The notes under the pieces were generated by a model. That model was not told where the DNA came from. It searched no databases and saw only the letters and a list, made by a program, of their open reading frames with translations. Both the position numbers and the translations under genes were made by a program. A stretch of DNA of 64,000 bases from assembly GCA_947490615.1 (NCBI GenBank), contig CANLHK010000002.1, forward strand, positions 186,001-250,000. Direction: 5' to 3'. How positions within the stretch are numbered: the stretch's first letter is position 1; every line of letters starts with the position of its first letter. Below are positions 3,656-11,670 of this stretch, piece after piece. The stretch comes from Planctomycetaceae bacterium (GTDB lineage: Bacteria > Planctomycetota > Phycisphaerae > Phycisphaerales > SM1A02).

Positions 3656-4855
3656 ATGGTCCATGCTGCTGACACACCCGCGATCGCACCCGTACGACCG
3701 ATGCCGATCGCGGGACTGACCTTTCTTTGCTCGCTTGGAACAGGTGTGCTGTGGAACGCGCTCTACTTTGTGGCGGCGCACGAATACGGCTTCGCGCAGC
3801 GTGACAATCTGGTGCTCGCATTCGTCAACGGAGTGCTCTACACGGCAGTAGCGTTGAACGCGGGACGCATCGTGCGATACCTCGAACGACGCGCGAGCCC
3901 GCGGCGGACGCTGGCGATGGTCTTGATCGCGCAGGCATTACTCGCACCGTTGGTACTCATTCCAAACATCACGCTGCTCTGGATCACTGCAGTGACGATG
4001 ACCGCATTCGGCGCGCTGCAGTGGCCCATCGTGCAACACTACCTCGCGTCGGGGCGCCATGGTGCAGAGATGCGCAGCGCCATCGGATGGTGGAACGCCT
4101 CGTGGATGGCAGCAACCGCCCTGGGTTTGGCGGCCGCGGGGCCTCTGCAAGAAGCGGGACTCATGCAATGGGCCATCCCTGCCCTGCTTCCGATCAATCT
4201 GCTCGCACTGCTCTTTCTAATGCGGTTTCCTTCGCAGCCTGTGCACCACGACGGACAGACCCAAGCGGTCCATGTCCCGAGCAGCTACCGCTCGCTTCTC
4301 GGTGCTGCGCGCGTGCTGCATCCAATGGGCTACCTCGTCATTGGCGCGCTCTCGCCGATCCTTCCCTACCTGTTTGCCAATCTCTCGACGCCCGAAGGTC
4401 TGCAAGCTCCGATCGGTTCGACTTGGCATCTCGCGCGCTTGTTCGCCGTACTCATCTTGTGGCGAACTGCATTCTGGCATGGGAAGGGCGCGACGCTCGT
4501 GATCGCAGGGTTGTTGCTGTCGCTGGGTTTCGCGGCGACTGTCGCTGCGAGTGAGCAGTCCACGCTCATTCTTGGACTCACCGCACTCGGACTCGGACAA
4601 GGCACCATCTACTACAGCGCGATCTACTACGGATTGGCCGTTGGAGGCGCTGAAGTTGAGGCGGGCGGAATTCATGAAGCGCTCGTCGGCGCTGGGTACT
4701 TCCTCGGACCTGCGCTCGGCCTGCTCTCGCTTGCTGCGGGCGCGGGTACACCAGTCTTCATCGGGCTGGTGCTTGGAGCACTCGCAGTTGGATTCGTGGT
4801 CGCCGTCGTACGCGCGGTCGGTGCGGGTCGCGTCGCGCCTCTAGCAGACACTTAG
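3656..4855 (+). CDS. Major facilitator superfamily-type membrane transporter
   Basis: A 399-residue integral membrane protein with about 10-12 hydrophobic segments in two halves joined by a polar loop near residues 190-210 (RFPSQPVHHDGQTQAV). Layout and length fit the major facilitator superfamily; there are no other domains. No substrate-specific motif is recognisable. The C-terminal half has a small-residue-rich segment (LGLTALGLGQGTIYYSAIYYGLAVGG). The start at 3656 is the furthest upstream after the tRNA; an in-frame ATG at 3701 would remove 15 polar residues and is nearly as likely. It ends tail-to-tail with the next gene, the stop codons overlapping by a few bases. Confidence 0.75.
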   Translation: MVHAADTPAIAPVRPMPIAGLTFLCSLGTGVLWNALYFVAAHEYGFAQRDNLVLAFVNGVLYTAVALNAGRIVRYLERRASPRRTLAMVLIAQALLAPLVLIPNITLLWITAVTMTAFGALQWPIVQHYLASGRHGAEMRSAIGWWNASWMAATALGLAAAGPLQEAGLMQWAIPALLPINLLALLFLMRFPSQPVHHDGQTQAVHVPSSYRSLLGAARVLHPMGYLVIGALSPILPYLFANLSTPEGLQAPIGSTWHLARLFAVLILWRTAFWHGKGATLVIAGLLLSLGFAATVAASEQSTLILGLTALGLGQGTIYYSAIYYGLAVGGAEVEAGGIHEALVGAGYFLGPALGLLSLAAGAGTPVFIGLVLGALAVGFVVAVVRAVGAGRVAPLADT

Positions 4856-6309
4856 TCGAGTCCGTCGCTGTGTAAGCGTCCGAGCTCAAGGCGCAAGGCA
4901 CTCTCGAGTGACGCGTGCGTGAATCGGAATCCTTCGCGCTCTAACACCAGTGGCTTGACCAACGCGCCGTCGAGGAGAAGTCGATTTCCCATCTCGCCAA
5001 ACACGCCGCGCACGATTGTGCTCGGAAGCGGTGCCACGGTCGGACGACGGAGCACTCTGCCAAGAGTTCGCGCAAACTCCGCCTGAGTGAGAGCATTTGG
5101 AGCAACCGCATTCACGGGCCCCTCCATCGCCGGATGCCGCAGGCAGAACAAGATGGCACCTAACAGGTCGTCGAGCGAAATCCAACTGAACCCCTGCGTT
5201 CCTGCACCGACGCGCCCACCGAGCCCGCAGCGAAACGCAGGCAACATCGCGCGCAGCGCACCGCCTGCGCTCGACAACACGATGCCGACTCGAACATGCA
5301 CGACACGCACTCGAGCAGCACGCGCTTCGTCGGCCGCGCTCTCCCAGGCCTGTGTGACTTCCGCAAGAAACCCTTGGCCAGGCGCGCTGCGTTCATCGAC
5401 CCACTCTGATCCTCGGTGACCATAGAACCCGATCGCACTCGCGCAGACGAGGACTTTCGGACCGACCGCTGCCCGGGCGAGCGCGTGTGCGATGGCTTTC
5501 GTCCCTTGGACGCGACTTTCGAGTATCGCACGCTTGCGGCGCGTGGTCCAACGCAGCGCTGCGATCGGTGCGCCCGCGAGATGCACCATTGCATCGAGAT
5601 CGCGCAGAGATTCCTGCGAGAGTCCGCACGCTACATCGGCGGGATTCCAGCGGCGTTCAGTGGCGTCGCCGGGTTGGCCGCGCACGAAGCGCACGACCTC
5701 ATGACCACCCGTAGTCAAGAATGCGCAGAGTTGCTTTCCAACGAGACCCGAAGCACCCGTGACTCCAATGCGCAGGCGCGTAGGACCGAATCGCGTGAGA
5801 TCGTCAGAATGCCGCAGCAAGTCATCGCGTGTGCGTGCGTGTCGAAAGGCGAACTGGCGGGCCAACTCGCGCTGGATCACTCGTCGACTCAGCGCGCGGC
5901 CGAGCGCACCGAACGGGGGATCGAAGCGAATGGAATCCTCCAACATCGCATGGTGGCTGTCGACGGTTAGAAATCGATGCGCGTGGCTCCACGATCGAAA
6001 CGGTCCACGCTCTTGCACATCGACGAATTGCTGTCCCTCCACAACACCGTGGTGGGAAGCGGTCACGCTCGTCGTGCATGGACCGAGGCGCGCACGAATC
6101 ACCGCGGTCGCCCCGTTGGCGAGCGGGCTCGCCTCCTGAAGCACTTCAAGTGAAAGCCACGGCGGGAGAAGTCGCTGGAGCGCTCCAGAACGGAAATGCC
6201 ACGCCGCAAGCGCCTCGGCCGAAACTGGCAATCGCGACGCGCGATGAAAGCAACATTGCCCTCTTGCGGGCGCTGCGATCGGTTGGGGATTGCCTGCGTC
6301 CATCTCCAT
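4852..6309 (-). CDS. SRPBCC domain fused to a TIGR01777-family NAD(P)-dependent epimerase
   Basis: A 485-residue fusion. Residues about 20-170 form an SRPBCC (START-like) ligand-binding domain (SGALQRLLPPWLSLEVL, DPPFGALGRALS). Residues about 180-475 form an atypical short-chain dehydrogenase of the TIGR01777 family with the Rossmann motif TGASGLVG (184-191), SAIGFYGHRG, and WISLDDLLGAI near the C-terminus. Members were once called SulA-like cell-division inhibitors, but no such role is supported for most. The SRPBCC fusion suggests a hydrophobic substrate passed to the redox domain. No Shine-Dalgarno sequence; a weak GACACT lies 6 nt before the ATG. The gene is monocistronic and convergent with the MFS gene. 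Confidence 0.88.
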   Translation of the reverse strand: MEMDAGNPQPIAAPARGQCCFHRASRLPVSAEALAAWHFRSGALQRLLPPWLSLEVLQEASPLANGATAVIRARLGPCTTSVTASHHGVVEGQQFVDVQERGPFRSWSHAHRFLTVDSHHAMLEDSIRFDPPFGALGRALSRRVIQRELARQFAFRHARTRDDLLRHSDDLTRFGPTRLRIGVTGASGLVGKQLCAFLTTGGHEVVRFVRGQPGDATERRWNPADVACGLSQESLRDLDAMVHLAGAPIAALRWTTRRKRAILESRVQGTKAIAHALARAAVGPKVLVCASAIGFYGHRGSEWVDERSAPGQGFLAEVTQAWESAADEARAARVRVVHVRVGIVLSSAGGALRAMLPAFRCGLGGRVGAGTQGFSWISLDDLLGAILFCLRHPAMEGPVNAVAPNALTQAEFARTLGRVLRRPTVAPLPSTIVRGVFGEMGNRLLLDGALVKPLVLEREGFRFTHASLESALRLELGRLHSDGLD

Positions 6310-6441: not shown

Positions 6442-8034
6442 ATGACCGCCTCTTCCGCGCCCGCGCCAACACCAGCCGAACTCACACCCACGCAGCGCGT
6501 CGCACTACTGCTGCTGCACGGCGGAACTGCAGGTTGGATCGGCTACGGCGCGTTCGTCAAGGCCACTGAGTTCAATCCGCTGCTGCTGCCACCGCCGATC
6601 ATGGCAGCGATTCGCGCGGTGATCGACGGCACCGGCGTCGACGGCACGCAGTTTCTCGAGTGGTCACTGCGCGTCATCATTGGCGCTGAAGTCTTCATCG
6701 CTTTGGCGATTCTCACCTCGCGATTTGCGCGGCAGATCGCGGTGATCACGCTCGGGTTCTTCTGCATCGTGCTCCTCATTGCGATGGCGCAAGCAGGCAT
6801 CAAGGCGCGCGAAGGTCAAGCTCTCGCAGAGATGCTCGCTGGAAGTTGCGGCTGCTTTGGCAAGGCAGGACTCCCCGCGAGCGTGATGTTCGCGATTGAT
6901 GGCGCGCTGCTCGCGTCGGCCTGGTTTCTCGTTCCGACTCGGGCCATCCGCACTCGTGCGCCCCTTTGGGTTCCTGCACTCGTTGGTCTCATTGCCATCT
7001 TTGCGATCCCCAAGCCGGTGATTGAGGCGACACCTATCGACGACGGCAATCCCACGATTCCCGTGGTCGATGGCACCACCTCCGAAGCTTGGCCTGATGC
7101 ACCGGCGACCTATGAGAAGAACTACTTCACCAAATGGCCTGAGTGGGTAGGTAAGCCTTTCCGCTCGCAAAAACTGGCGTTGGCGATTGAGCGACCGATG
7201 CCTGAGGATCTTGAGCGCGGCGACTGGATTGTCGTCTTCTCACGCGCCGACTGCGACCACTGCCAAGAACTCTATCGCACGCACTTTGCCACTCCACGCA
7301 AAGAGCGGGTGCTCAAAGTTTCGATCCCTGACACGAAGGGACAGCCGTTGGCCATGCCCTGCGTCGGTTGTGAGGTGCGTCAGCTCTATCGCGTGAAACA
7401 AGGCGCCGCGGGAACATCACCGAACTATCTCGTGCAAGCTCCTGTGCTCGTGCGTCTCAAGGATGGAGTGGTGACGGCCGTTTGTTCTGACAGCGACAAG
7501 GCCGAGGAGCTCAAGGCGGTTCTCGGTGAAACGAACAACAACACCGCTCCCGCACCCATCAATCCAACCGCGACGAACACGACGCCCCCAGCCGCTGCAT
7601 GGCCGGGGCTTCCTTCCAAACTCGAACCGTTCTATATCGCGGAGTACGCCAACGCCGCGGGAACCCCCTTCGCCTCGAATCCATTCTCGCGCTTGATCGC
7701 TGGGAAGATGCCCGACGACCTGCTCACGGGGCGTTGGATCATCGTCTTCTATCGAGAGGACTGCGATCACTGCCAAGAATTGCTCTCGACCTATTTCACG
7801 GGAAAACTTCCTGTTCGGACGCTGGCGATTGCGATCCCTGATGCTGACCCGAACAATCTCCTCGACAACCCTTGCGACGAGTGCGTGAAGCGATCGCTGG
7901 TCAAGGGTCCCAACTATGTGATCCAAACGCCCGTCGTGCTCTCGATGGTCGATGGCGTGGTCGAGTGCGTGGTCGACAATCCCGAAGACATCACAGCACT
8001 TGAAGCGTGCCTGAAGTTTCCGAGTCCCAAGTGA
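6442..8034 (+). CDS. MauE/DoxX-like membrane protein with two double-CxxC thioredoxin-like domains
   Basis: A 530-residue protein. Residues 20-190 hold about five transmembrane segments with a GSCGCFG motif (Cys136, Cys138) typical of the MauE/DoxX-like redox membrane family. After it come two thioredoxin-like domains of one design. The first has CDHC (271-274), CVGC (307-310) and Cys348; the second has CDHC (441-444), CDEC (478-481) and Cys509. A Thr/Pro/Asn linker (364-387) joins them. In each, hydrophobic strand plus CDHCQEL stands where thioredoxins carry CxxC. The domains probably face the periplasm and exchange electrons with the membrane part (inference). The ATG at 6442 gives a start just before the first membrane helix; longer frames add an unrelated sequence. 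The next gene carries a third copy. Exact substrate unknown. Confidence 0.8.
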   Translation: MTASSAPAPTPAELTPTQRVALLLLHGGTAGWIGYGAFVKATEFNPLLLPPPIMAAIRAVIDGTGVDGTQFLEWSLRVIIGAEVFIALAILTSRFARQIAVITLGFFCIVLLIAMAQAGIKAREGQALAEMLAGSCGCFGKAGLPASVMFAIDGALLASAWFLVPTRAIRTRAPLWVPALVGLIAIFAIPKPVIEATPIDDGNPTIPVVDGTTSEAWPDAPATYEKNYFTKWPEWVGKPFRSQKLALAIERPMPEDLERGDWIVVFSRADCDHCQELYRTHFATPRKERVLKVSIPDTKGQPLAMPCVGCEVRQLYRVKQGAAGTSPNYLVQAPVLVRLKDGVVTAVCSDSDKAEELKAVLGETNNNTAPAPINPTATNTTPPAAAWPGLPSKLEPFYIAEYANAAGTPFASNPFSRLIAGKMPDDLLTGRWIIVFYREDCDHCQELLSTYFTGKLPVRTLAIAIPDADPNNLLDNPCDECVKRSLVKGPNYVIQTPVVLSMVDGVVECVVDNPEDITALEACLKFPSPK

Positions 8035-8071
8035 TCGGCGCGCCGAGTGCTTCGCGCAGAGTTCGTTGCCC

Positions 8072-8989
8072 ATGACCCGATTCGTTTCCATCCGCGTGCT
8101 CTGTCTGGTCGTGGCGCTGGGCTACTGGTCTTGCGCTGCGTACCAACTCTGGGCTGGATCCGCCTCGACGCCGCTTCCCCTGCGCGAGCTCTGCGCGTTC
8201 CTGTTGAGTTACGAAAGTGAGACCGCTGCGCACCTCGTGGTTGGCCTTGAGTTTGGTCTTGGTGCCGCCGTGTTGGCAGCAGGCACGCGCGTGGCGGGCG
8301 TCCTCGGCGCGGGGCTTCTTGGGTTTGTAGCGTTGTCGAGCGTTTCAGCATCGCTGCGGACGGGAAGCTTCCTTCCCTCCTTTCTCATGCTGGTTGTTGC
8401 AGTGGGTTTGCTGCTCTGGTCCCGTTGGATTCCACGGCCGGCTCCTCGCGCAAGTGAGCGACGCGGTCTGAGCCCTGCATGGTCCGCGTTTGCAGGGATC
8501 GCTGCGGGAACCGTTGCGTCGCACTTGGCTGCGCATACTTCGTTCAAGCCCGATCGGGCCATCGGCGAGGCCGAGGCCCGTGCTCGTGCCATGTCGATCG
8601 ATCTCGATCTCAAGCCCTACATCGGAATTCGGCTCAAAGATTCGCCGCTGGCGAGCTATCTCCCAGCGGTGATCGAAGAAGTCGGTGATGACACGGCGTT
8701 CATCATCTTCTACAACCCGCTTTGCGACGCCTGCCACACACTGTTCGACTCAGTCCTCATGGAGCCGCGAACGGAACGCTTCTTCGCCATCGAGATTCCG
8801 CTCGCTGCCGATGCCGTGGTGGCTCCGCATGAGGAGCTCGGTCCAATCGAGTGTCCGCCCTGCGTGTTTGACTCGCTGCCACCAGGTCCGCTCTGGCTCA
8901 TCGCTCCACCGATGACTGTGAAAGTCGAACGAGGCGTGATCACCTGCGTGGCCGATCGATTCGGTGGCGACTGCTTCAATCCGAAGTAA
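8072..8989 (+). CDS. Membrane protein with a double-CxxC thioredoxin-like domain
   Basis: A 305-residue companion of the preceding gene, 37 bases downstream. Residues 1-120 hold about four membrane segments (LCLVVALGYWSCAAYQLW; LVVGLEFGLGAAVLAAGTR; LMLVVAVGLLLW), followed by one more near 137-155. Residues 180-305 form a single thioredoxin-like domain with CDAC (218-221), CPPC (261-264) and Cys292, the same three-site cysteine plan as the neighbouring protein. The membrane part resembles DoxX/MauE proteins but lacks the CGCFG motif. A TTG two codons earlier could also be the start. The two genes look like one operon for transmembrane disulfide chemistry; the partner protein is unknown. Its 3' end overlaps the end of tilS by 14 bases. 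Confidence 0.75.
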   Translation: MTRFVSIRVLCLVVALGYWSCAAYQLWAGSASTPLPLRELCAFLLSYESETAAHLVVGLEFGLGAAVLAAGTRVAGVLGAGLLGFVALSSVSASLRTGSFLPSFLMLVVAVGLLLWSRWIPRPAPRASERRGLSPAWSAFAGIAAGTVASHLAAHTSFKPDRAIGEAEARARAMSIDLDLKPYIGIRLKDSPLASYLPAVIEEVGDDTAFIIFYNPLCDACHTLFDSVLMEPRTERFFAIEIPLAADAVVAPHEELGPIECPPCVFDSLPPGPLWLIAPPMTVKVERGVITCVADRFGGDCFNPK

Positions 8990-10019
8990 GCGCGGCGATC
9001 TCACGCGCATCGATGCGCAGCACCACTCCGCCCTGACACGCAAAAGTGCGTGGACGCCGCTCCATCGCGGCGGTGCCTTGCAGCGCCGCGTCGAGTATCG
9101 CTCGTGTCGCACCGCCACCCGCAGCGCGCACGAGGCGTGCAAGGGCTTCGGACTGAATCGCCTTGGGAAGCGACTCAAACGATTCGCGAGTCAGAGTTGT
9201 CTGCGAACGCGGCACGAGCTGATCAAGCAATTCGTCGCGCAGTGCGCAGAGGGCTGCCGTCTCTTCGACCATGGCACCTGCCCCAGCGGCGATCTCTTCA
9301 CACAGCGCCGCGAGTGAAGGGTCGCCGCGGATGGCGCCACGGCTGCGAAGTGTGTTCGAGGGATCCTCGCACCAGGTGAGTTGCATCTCGCTGAGGAAGG
9401 CGCGCAACTCCGACCGTCGCATCGCGAGCATCGGCCTGCACAGAACGAGTTGGTCAGCGACGCCGCCTTCCATCGCTCGAACAGGAACAAGACACGCCGC
9501 AGCGTCGATCCCCGCACCGCGTTTGAGCGCGAGGAGGAGACCTTCCGCGCGATCATCGGACTGGTGTGCGAGAAGTACCTGTTGGGCACCCACGCTCACG
9601 GCAAACTCGCGCGTCGCCTGCAATCGCGCAGCACGCGCAGCGTCCAAAATGTTGCCTGTCTCTGCGAGCATCACTCGGCGAATCTCCGCGCGCTGCACGC
9701 CAAGAAATCTCGCCAGAGCGATCGCATGCTCAGCCTCACGGCGATTGTCCGCGCGCAGACCGTGGTCAATCGCGAGGACCGAGAAACCCTTGAGCGTCGC
9801 TGAAGTGCGTTCGCGCAAGGCTGCGACGAGTACGAGCATCGCCATCGAATCGCCACCACCACTCACACAACAGACGACTGGTGACTCGGCCTTGACGCCA
9901 GCAGCGTGGAGACCGCGCTGAGTCCGTTGAGCGAGAGGGTGACGCGACGCGCGCAGCAAGAGGTCAGCGCGGGAGAGCCTCATGGGCGTGTCGGGATCCA
10001 TCAGAGGATTCGTGGACAT
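8976..10019 (-). CDS. tilS: tRNA(Ile)-lysidine synthase
   Basis: A 347-residue N-type ATP pyrophosphatase that converts C34 of the AUA-reading tRNA-Ile to lysidine. The P-loop SGGGDS (53-58) is intact. Downstream segments fit TilS: AIDHGLR, LARFLGVQ, LAHQSDDRAEGLLLALKRG (the usual form is AHHxDDQAET) and CRPMLAMRRSELRAFL. The C-terminal substrate-binding domain seems short or divergent. The start is placed at 10019, 7 nt after the upstream stop, which fits translational coupling; ATGs a few codons in are possible. It is the last gene of a minus-strand operon that begins with a sigma factor, an unusual setting for a tRNA-modification gene. Confidence 0.93.
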   Translation of the reverse strand: MSTNPLMDPDTPMRLSRADLLLRASRHPLAQRTQRGLHAAGVKAESPVVCCVSGGGDSMAMLVLVAALRERTSATLKGFSVLAIDHGLRADNRREAEHAIALARFLGVQRAEIRRVMLAETGNILDAARAARLQATREFAVSVGAQQVLLAHQSDDRAEGLLLALKRGAGIDAAACLVPVRAMEGGVADQLVLCRPMLAMRRSELRAFLSEMQLTWCEDPSNTLRSRGAIRGDPSLAALCEEIAAGAGAMVEETAALCALRDELLDQLVPRSQTTLTRESFESLPKAIQSEALARLVRAAGGGATRAILDAALQGTAAMERRPRTFACQGGVVLRIDAREIAALTSD

Positions 10020-10026
10020 GCGTGGC

Positions 10027-11670
10027 TCAGTGTGGAGCACTCCGCGGCTCGAGGTCGCCAACCGCGGCAGCTGGCACGCCATCACGATTGTGCGCTGCAG
10101 GCTTCGTCTCAAGATGCCCGGGAGATTCGATGTCGACGAGCGCATGCACACGCAAGTTTGTCGGCAGGTCGTACCGGAATCGCACGCGTCCCATGCGCTC
10201 CAGCAGATCGGAGAGCGCGGACAGACCACGCGAGACTCGGTCTTGCTTGCCTTCAACGACGAGCGGCTGCCACCGTCGAAGGAGCGTCGCAGCGCGAGGC
10301 CCATCACAGAATCCAAGTCCGTCGACCTTGGGGTGCTCGTCTTCACTGCATGAAGAATCGGACAATCGCTCTGACACGCGGGTGAGCCACTGAGGGTCAC
10401 TCGCGTACACCTGCCAACCGCCGCACGGAGTGGGGACGGTCTTCCAGCAGAGTTGGCAGTGACCGAGTTTGACCGCGGCGCCGAGATAGCGATCCGCAGC
10501 GAGCCCAAGCTCTGCACACACGCGCGCGCTGTGGTTCGCTGCAGGCTCGATCTCCTTGGCTTGCTGAGGGTCTGCGCGCCGTTGATCGCTCCGAGGGACC
10601 GCTACCAATTGTTGAATGCTGCAAGAAACGCCCCGCATGAAGTGGTCCTGCTCGAGCTCACCTTGCTCTGGGTCTTCGATTCGCCACGCGCAGGCGAAGG
10701 TCGGCCGCTGATGGTCGTTGGACATCCCGAGAAGAAAAACGCGCTCACCCGAGAGGTTGGCGCGCATTGCTGGAGGCGGCTTGAGTTCTGGAAGGAGCGC
10801 CATCAAAAATCCATCGGCCTTGCGAGGGAGTCCATCTGCCGGGTGAGCGATCGCAAGGACTGCGTGTTCCTCCAGCGCGCGCATCAAGTGCGCGTCCAAG
10901 GGCCGCGGATCGGGAGTGAGATCCACGGGTGGCGTGTCGTAGCTTCCAGTGATCTCCGCGTGCAGACCGCGCTTCTCACCACGCAACGCGATCGTCGTCG
11001 CACCACCCATCGGCGCGCTGTGACGCATGAACACCCGCACCGATGCGTCGTCAGCAAGCAGTCCTTGCATCAACGGTTCGCCGATGAGTGAGCCTGCGGG
11101 ATCTTCCTTCGGTACGCGCAACGCTGACGCATCCATCAGCGCACGACCATGGGCCGTTGCTGGTGCGATGAGCAACCAGCCTCCGACTCGACGCATCGCG
11201 AGGAGTTCAGTCGCGCTTTCAAATCGGCCTGGCACCGTCATTTTGCCGCCAAGCATTCGCAGCAAATGGGCGCAGCGCTGGTCATCGCTTTCGAAACCAA
11301 GAAGCCATGAGCCATCCTCGGTTCCACCTGGAAGCAAGAATGCGATTCTCCCCGCAAAAAGATCCTGCGCGAGAAGCTCGCTTGGAGCTTTCGCACGCTT
11401 GGCTAAGAGATCAAAGGTTGCGCGCGCATCGGCTCCAGCGAAGGCATCAAGAATCGGGCGCACCACCGCACCGCGATCGCCTTCGAGGAGATCCGCCACT
11501 CCACGGGCGTCGAGCGCGAAGACCGCATCTTTGGGAGCCAATGCGAACCCAGCATTGTCGGCGTGGGTGGAGAGCGAGAAGCAGCCTATGAGCGCCGCGC
11601 ATCCGCAGCTGAAAGCACGCATTGCTCGCCTGACCGCGGTGCCTCGCATGGTCGACGCGCGCATCGGCAT
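10027..11670 (-). CDS. Secreted protein of unknown function in the sigma-factor operon
   Basis: A 547-residue protein I do not recognise. The N-terminus looks like a Sec signal peptide (Arg-rich start, then FSCGCAALIGCFSLSTHADNAG, cleavage near residue 38). The mature part has no membrane helix, is rich in Asp and Ala, and contains phrases such as PKDAVFALDARGVADLL and GSWLLGFESDDQR reminiscent of large planctomycete exported proteins. The second half contains scattered cysteines, including CQLCW. Several in-frame ATGs lie near the start; the first is chosen because it is 2 nt from the upstream stop. It sits between a single-pass membrane protein and tilS, in an operon headed by an ECF sigma factor. 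Confidence 0.7.
   Translation of the reverse strand: MPMRASTMRGTAVRRAMRAFSCGCAALIGCFSLSTHADNAGFALAPKDAVFALDARGVADLLEGDRGAVVRPILDAFAGADARATFDLLAKRAKAPSELLAQDLFAGRIAFLLPGGTEDGSWLLGFESDDQRCAHLLRMLGGKMTVPGRFESATELLAMRRVGGWLLIAPATAHGRALMDASALRVPKEDPAGSLIGEPLMQGLLADDASVRVFMRHSAPMGGATTIALRGEKRGLHAEITGSYDTPPVDLTPDPRPLDAHLMRALEEHAVLAIAHPADGLPRKADGFLMALLPELKPPPAMRANLSGERVFLLGMSNDHQRPTFACAWRIEDPEQGELEQDHFMRGVSCSIQQLVAVPRSDQRRADPQQAKEIEPAANHSARVCAELGLAADRYLGAAVKLGHCQLCWKTVPTPCGGWQVYASDPQWLTRVSERLSDSSCSEDEHPKVDGLGFCDGPRAATLLRRWQPLVVEGKQDRVSRGLSALSDLLERMGRVRFRYDLPTNLRVHALVDIESPGHLETKPAAHNRDGVPAAAVGDLEPRSAPH

Follow-up and report, generated by a model that had tools for sequence, protein, structure and literature searches.

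A MauE-like membrane protein with two thioredoxin-like domains and its CGC-less paralogue in a planctomycete, probably a variant of extracytoplasmic disulfide machinery

The window, a stretch of 64,000 nucleotides, lies within contig 2 of a planctomycete genome of 3.26 Mb (96.9% complete). Two plus-strand genes with 37 bases between them, here called P0001 and P0002, each encode a multi-helix membrane part, followed by two thioredoxin-like domains in the first protein and one in the second. This layout, its coordinates and, apart from some tail cysteines, its cysteines were found as described in the initial annotation, and the features are as follows.

6442..8034, + strand: gene 1, P0001 (530 aa), MauE-like membrane part and two thioredoxin-like domains
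6487..7011, + strand: P0001 membrane part, about residues 16-190, five helices (placed from a low-confidence model, hydropathy, the K+R pattern and Pfam MauE)
6847..6855, + strand: P0001 C136-G-C138 (within GSCGCFG), just ahead of helix 4, predicted outer side (sequence, K+R pattern)
7090..7533, + strand: P0001 thioredoxin-like domain 1
7252..7263, + strand: domain 1 first motif, C271-D-H-C274
7360..7371, + strand: domain 1 second motif, C307-V-G-C310
7483..7485, + strand: domain 1 tail cysteine, C348, single
7600..8022, + strand: P0001 thioredoxin-like domain 2
7762..7773, + strand: domain 2 first motif, C441-D-H-C444
7873..7884, + strand: domain 2 second motif, C478-D-E-C481
7966..8010, + strand: domain 2 tail cysteines, C509 and C523, possible third pair
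8072..8989, + strand: gene 2, P0002 (305 aa, ATG at 8072), membrane part paralogous to that of P0001, without CGC, and one thioredoxin-like domain
8561..8986, + strand: P0002 thioredoxin-like domain (domain 3)
8723..8734, + strand: P0002 first motif, C218-D-A-C221
8852..8863, + strand: P0002 second motif, C261-P-P-C264
8945..8974, + strand: P0002 tail cysteines, C292 and C301, invariant in 31/31, possible third pair

The flanking minus-strand genes at 4852-6309 and 8976-10517 resemble, on inspection by eye, a TIGR01777-type epimerase and a tRNA lysidine synthetase, and similar genes recur beside the loci of relatives. The recurrent neighbours in close relatives, judged by eye to be tRNA lysidine synthetase, epimerase and other housekeeping genes, point to no substrate. 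Near the distant homologues L131 and L132 there are DUF1573 proteins, and near L131 also a C39-peptidase domain; these are two loci, too few to build on.

All three thioredoxin-like domains follow one plan, a CDxC, then a CxxC, then further cysteine. The two motifs are separated, first Cys to first Cys, by 36, 37 and 43 residues in domains 1, 2 and 3, as had been read from the sequence at the outset, and the next cysteine follows the first Cys of the second motif after 41, 31 and 31 residues. A lone cysteine had been described some 30-40 residues further on, but it is single only in domain 1; domains 2 and 3 have two tail cysteines and thus six cysteines each. The accompanying claim that standard thioredoxins have only the first pair leaves human thioredoxin-1 out of account, which has a second pair, Cys62/Cys69, at the ends of its third helix, plus Cys73 (PMC9313168). 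Unlike the second motif described here, that pair is not a CxxC, and it belongs to a protein that has no membrane part. If the two proteins are mapped onto each other, the second CxxC may lie near the place of Cys62/Cys69.

In the model of P0002 (mean pLDDT 72.8, with blocks of 73-96 from residue 181 onward), the soluble part has a thioredoxin-superfamily fold, in which the order of elements is strand, CxxC helix, strand, a long stretch with C261/C264, proline and two strands, and C218 stands directly ahead of helix 219-228. Comparison of this model by VIA-align gave Z values of ~8 (up to 8.3, a middling value) for CcmG/DsbE-like chains, peroxiredoxins and deiodinases alike, with ResA close behind. 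Because of this tie the fold can be called thioredoxin-like without any sharper placing. Foldseek returned nothing below E 0.001 for the P0002 model, the best being Campylobacter FetE (E 0.018), and a profile match to thioredoxin domain-containing protein 5 reached E 1.8e-9 when summed over three weak stretches. The model of P0001, from a 5-row alignment, is poor (mean pLDDT 51.4, pTM 0.31).

When 119 open frames were divided according to whether they have the membrane CGC, 88 did (P0001-type) and 31 did not (P0002-type). At E <= 0.01, Pfam MauE (PF07291) matches 74 of the 88 P0001-type members, which bears out the proposal that the GSCGCFG protein is MauE-like, and none of the 31 P0002-type proteins. 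P0001 itself scores 20.9 bits (E 4.7e-4), under the curated Pfam cut-off of 27; its genus orthologue at G005:C30 is above it with 28.2 bits. The NCBIfam BT_3928 family (NF045576), for which we found no paper in the open-licence literature, matches 31 of the 88 P0001-type members, but not P0001 at E <= 0.01. HHalign aligns the membrane halves of P0001-type and P0002-type proteins as homologues (probability 96.6%, E 5e-10), although the P0002-type half is without the CGC; the GSCGCFG present in P0001 is absent from P0002 and its 30 relatives, a set that was sorted by this motif. A membrane CxC motif may be a MauE feature. In the P0001-type rows of alignment A2 the CGC provides the only nearly invariant cysteines of the MauE-like part, its two Cys being invariant there by construction because these rows were picked by the CxC motif.

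Topology was read by the positive-inside rule, with the helix limits for the count taken from models and hydropathy. In the P0001-type proteins, loops 2 and 4 have 2.65 and 1.61 Lys plus Arg per 10 residues, and loops 1 and 3 have 0.95 and 0.59; the corresponding values for the P0002-type are 2.16 and 1.91 against 0.52 and 0.37. Since both types are enriched in loops 2 and 4, the CGC and the thioredoxin domains are predicted to be on the outer side of the membrane. The linkers to the thioredoxin domains have 0.53 (P0001-type) and 1.20 (P0002-type, less clear).

The P0002-type proteins form one clade of 31 domains (support 100/96) in a tree made from the thioredoxin domains alone, and this tree, not being built on the CGC, independently backs the sorting. 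A2 and the tree leave out L138 (E-value limit) and L102-L105, whose contigs repeat genomes already counted. All six domain cysteines are invariant in 31 of 31 P0002-type proteins. In 30 of the 31 cases the gene comes immediately after one of the P0001 type or after what can still be seen of one. For 27 the preceding frame is complete, has the CGC and is on the same strand (26 picked out by script, and by coordinates L008, where the open frame begins far upstream); for two it is truncated at the contig end (L018, L049), and at L033 it is a short thioredoxin frame, itself after a CGC-bearing frame. Only the gene at L067 stands alone.

P0001 and P0002 belong to a known kind of membrane-thioredoxin redox fusion with an unusual elaboration, foremost the invariant six-cysteine thioredoxin domain carried on a MauE-like paralogue without the membrane CGC. 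As in MauE with the thioredoxin-like MauD, a MauE-type membrane domain is combined with a thioredoxin-like partner; in contrast to that pair, P0001 is one fused chain with two thioredoxin-like domains and extra Cys pairs, and a CGC-less paralogue is added. DsbB with DsbA and the existing VKOR-thioredoxin fusions follow a common logic with it, in which a redox protein in the membrane works with a member of the thioredoxin family, either tethered to it or a separate partner, but P0001 has a CGC pair in its membrane part, and neither P0001 nor P0002 has a Pfam match to the VKOR, DsbB or DsbD domains up to E = 1. The roles of DsbB and VKOR are described in PMC11208910, and MauE is reported to have been speculated to assist disulfide formation in methylamine dehydrogenase (PMC7794033). 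The open-licence literature yielded no description of the present arrangement, which is not proof that nothing is in print.

Searches of the window's genome for DsbA, Thioredoxin_4, DsbB and VKOR gave no match. Among 61 genomes searched, the 37 of the window's family include eight with VKOR over the cut-off, ten with DsbB and 20 with neither. For this reason the MauE-thioredoxin relay is a candidate oxidant, and more broadly a candidate for the handling of exported-protein thiols in bacteria without detected DsbA, DsbB or VKOR. It is not a strict replacement, because DsbB is found in 6/16 genus members and VKOR in the eight family genomes.

The two genes probably encode a version of the apparatus by which electrons reach or leave the disulfide bonds of proteins outside the cell membrane. 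On the reading that we prefer, they would form a thiol-disulfide relay at the outer face of the cytoplasmic membrane, a fusion of the MauE/MauD kind, in which the P0001 CGC, on the predicted outer side, would undergo disulfide exchange with the CxxC sites in both of the thioredoxin domains tethered to it. The quinone pool would most likely accept the electrons of the membrane CGC, which would let the domains oxidise exported proteins at their thiols, and P0002, the CGC-less paralogue, could be a dependent partner or a substrate adaptor. The second CxxC and the tail pair would be lineage-specific additions. For the second CxxC, a role as a disulfide close to the active site, structural or regulatory, is likelier than one as an indispensable donor of electrons. 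Taken as a whole, this oxidising two-gene relay is on balance a probable account.

As to which way the electrons run, oxidation of particular substrates is a plausible first choice. The likeliest alternative is the opposite direction, a relay that would hold cytochrome c precursors or the thiols of exported proteins in the reduced state, like DsbD/CcdA with CcmG/ResA. CcmG and ResA indeed rank with the closest folds, on a par with peroxiredoxins and deiodinases. The genome also has a DsbD-type membrane domain (DsbD_TM), a type that serves reduction, and this protein could feed such a relay. Furthermore, the even-cysteine excess looked for among predicted exported proteins was not found: 45 non-lipoproteins from 464 kb comprise 16 with even, 22 with odd and seven with no cysteines, next to 76 even and 96 odd counts in predicted cytosolic controls. 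The lack of bias, in a crude and underpowered test with gene calls and signal peptides by home-made rules, supports a reducing role and counts weakly against general disulfide formation. However, the MauE-like part has no nearly invariant cysteine besides the CGC, which is predicted to be outside, and therefore no inner cysteine site for electron uptake is apparent. We consider the reducing relay rather unlikely.

The remaining alternatives turn on the second CxxC, and hence on its distribution. When 101 related genomes were searched with P0001, 60 gave a match, among them every one of the 15 other genus members in the search. Four named records with relatives of P0001 bear the titles Planctomycetota bacterium, Phycisphaera sp., uncultured bacterium and Candidatus Kuenenia stuttgartiensis. 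Loci from 53 of the 60 contained 86 open frames with 105 thioredoxin-like domains between them, 104 belonging to the window's family and one to the same order, a set that leaves out secondary matches in some of these genomes; of the other seven, G064, G081 and G089 were added later and G027, G035, G037 and G052 were not included. The first CxxC is present in 105/105 of these domains and the second pair in 90/105, with neither Cys in 11 of the others and one in four. Together with the six cysteines of all 31 P0002-type proteins, these counts mean that the cysteine plan is not chance. More broadly, a profile of 74 domains matches 55 of 392 genomes sampled over the phylum, and 41 domains from more distant loci brought the set to 146. 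Every one of the 146 has the first CxxC as well as proline in the cis-Pro position, and 92 have the second pair, among them only two of the 41 distant domains (L128, L131). The second pair is found in 31/31 P0002-type domains, in 17/19 first and 17/19 second domains of two-domain proteins, in 25/69 single-domain P0001-type proteins and in 2/8 cut or short frames. On a tree with few columns and many unresolved forks, the trait requires seven changes, four of these forced by supported branches. With at least four changes beside an active-site pair that is constant throughout, the family offers a natural experiment on the role of a second Cys pair next to a thioredoxin active site.

The initial annotation had gone further, proposing a distinct transmembrane relay in which each soluble domain has its own donor pair, the second CxxC being redox-active and passing electrons to the first or taking them from it. 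Its broader part has held up, in that the protein is of a MauE-like redox type and the charge pattern places the domains outside. The high retention of the second pair in close relatives and the P0002-type also speaks for it, as does the tendency of both cysteines to be lost together. Moreover, while the distance between the first and second CxxC varies from 32 to 52, the second ends 16 residues ahead of the cis-Pro position in 75 of the 92 domains, which suggests that it is held at a fixed place relative to the active-site loop. Homologues without the second CxxC, which had been named as evidence against the proposal, nevertheless exist: 54 of 146 domains keep the first CxxC and lack it, including that of a third MauE-thioredoxin protein of the same genome (L126, G000:C1:385500-394500, frame 3967-5133, + strand; CGCFG present), which groups with distant homologues in the tree. 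Because of these the second CxxC is to be seen as an add-on outside the core mechanism. In G026 and G042, in addition, the pair is lost from both P0001-type domains although the P0002-type proteins of these genomes keep it, and a CxxC may equally be structural or metal-binding. A separate relay within each domain is consequently unlikely.

Still more doubtful is a narrower scheme, a system of this planctomycete group that would generate disulfides independently of DsbA, DsbB and VKOR, in which the P0001 CGC oxidises the tethered domains and the second CxxC acts as an internal shuttle handing oxidising equivalents to P0002, whose membrane half would have lost its redox site while its three Cys pairs stayed invariant. 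That the second CxxC and the two tail cysteines bind a metal such as zinc (a Cys4 site) would suit the invariance of these four cysteines in all 31 P0002-type proteins, but is very improbable given that the two sets vary independently (of the 92 domains that have the second pair, 25 have one tail cysteine or none, and 11 of the 54 without it have two), which favours separate disulfides.

Three consecutive thioredoxin-like frames are present at L033 (G048:C218, 1502-4353, minus strand); the middle one (236 aa), without the second CxxC, may represent a split gene or an intermediate in domain duplication. In a relative from the same order, one protein combines a MauE domain with DUF1573 stretches (L144:3738-5108, minus strand), and one genome of the window's family (G024:C1) has nine MauE matches.
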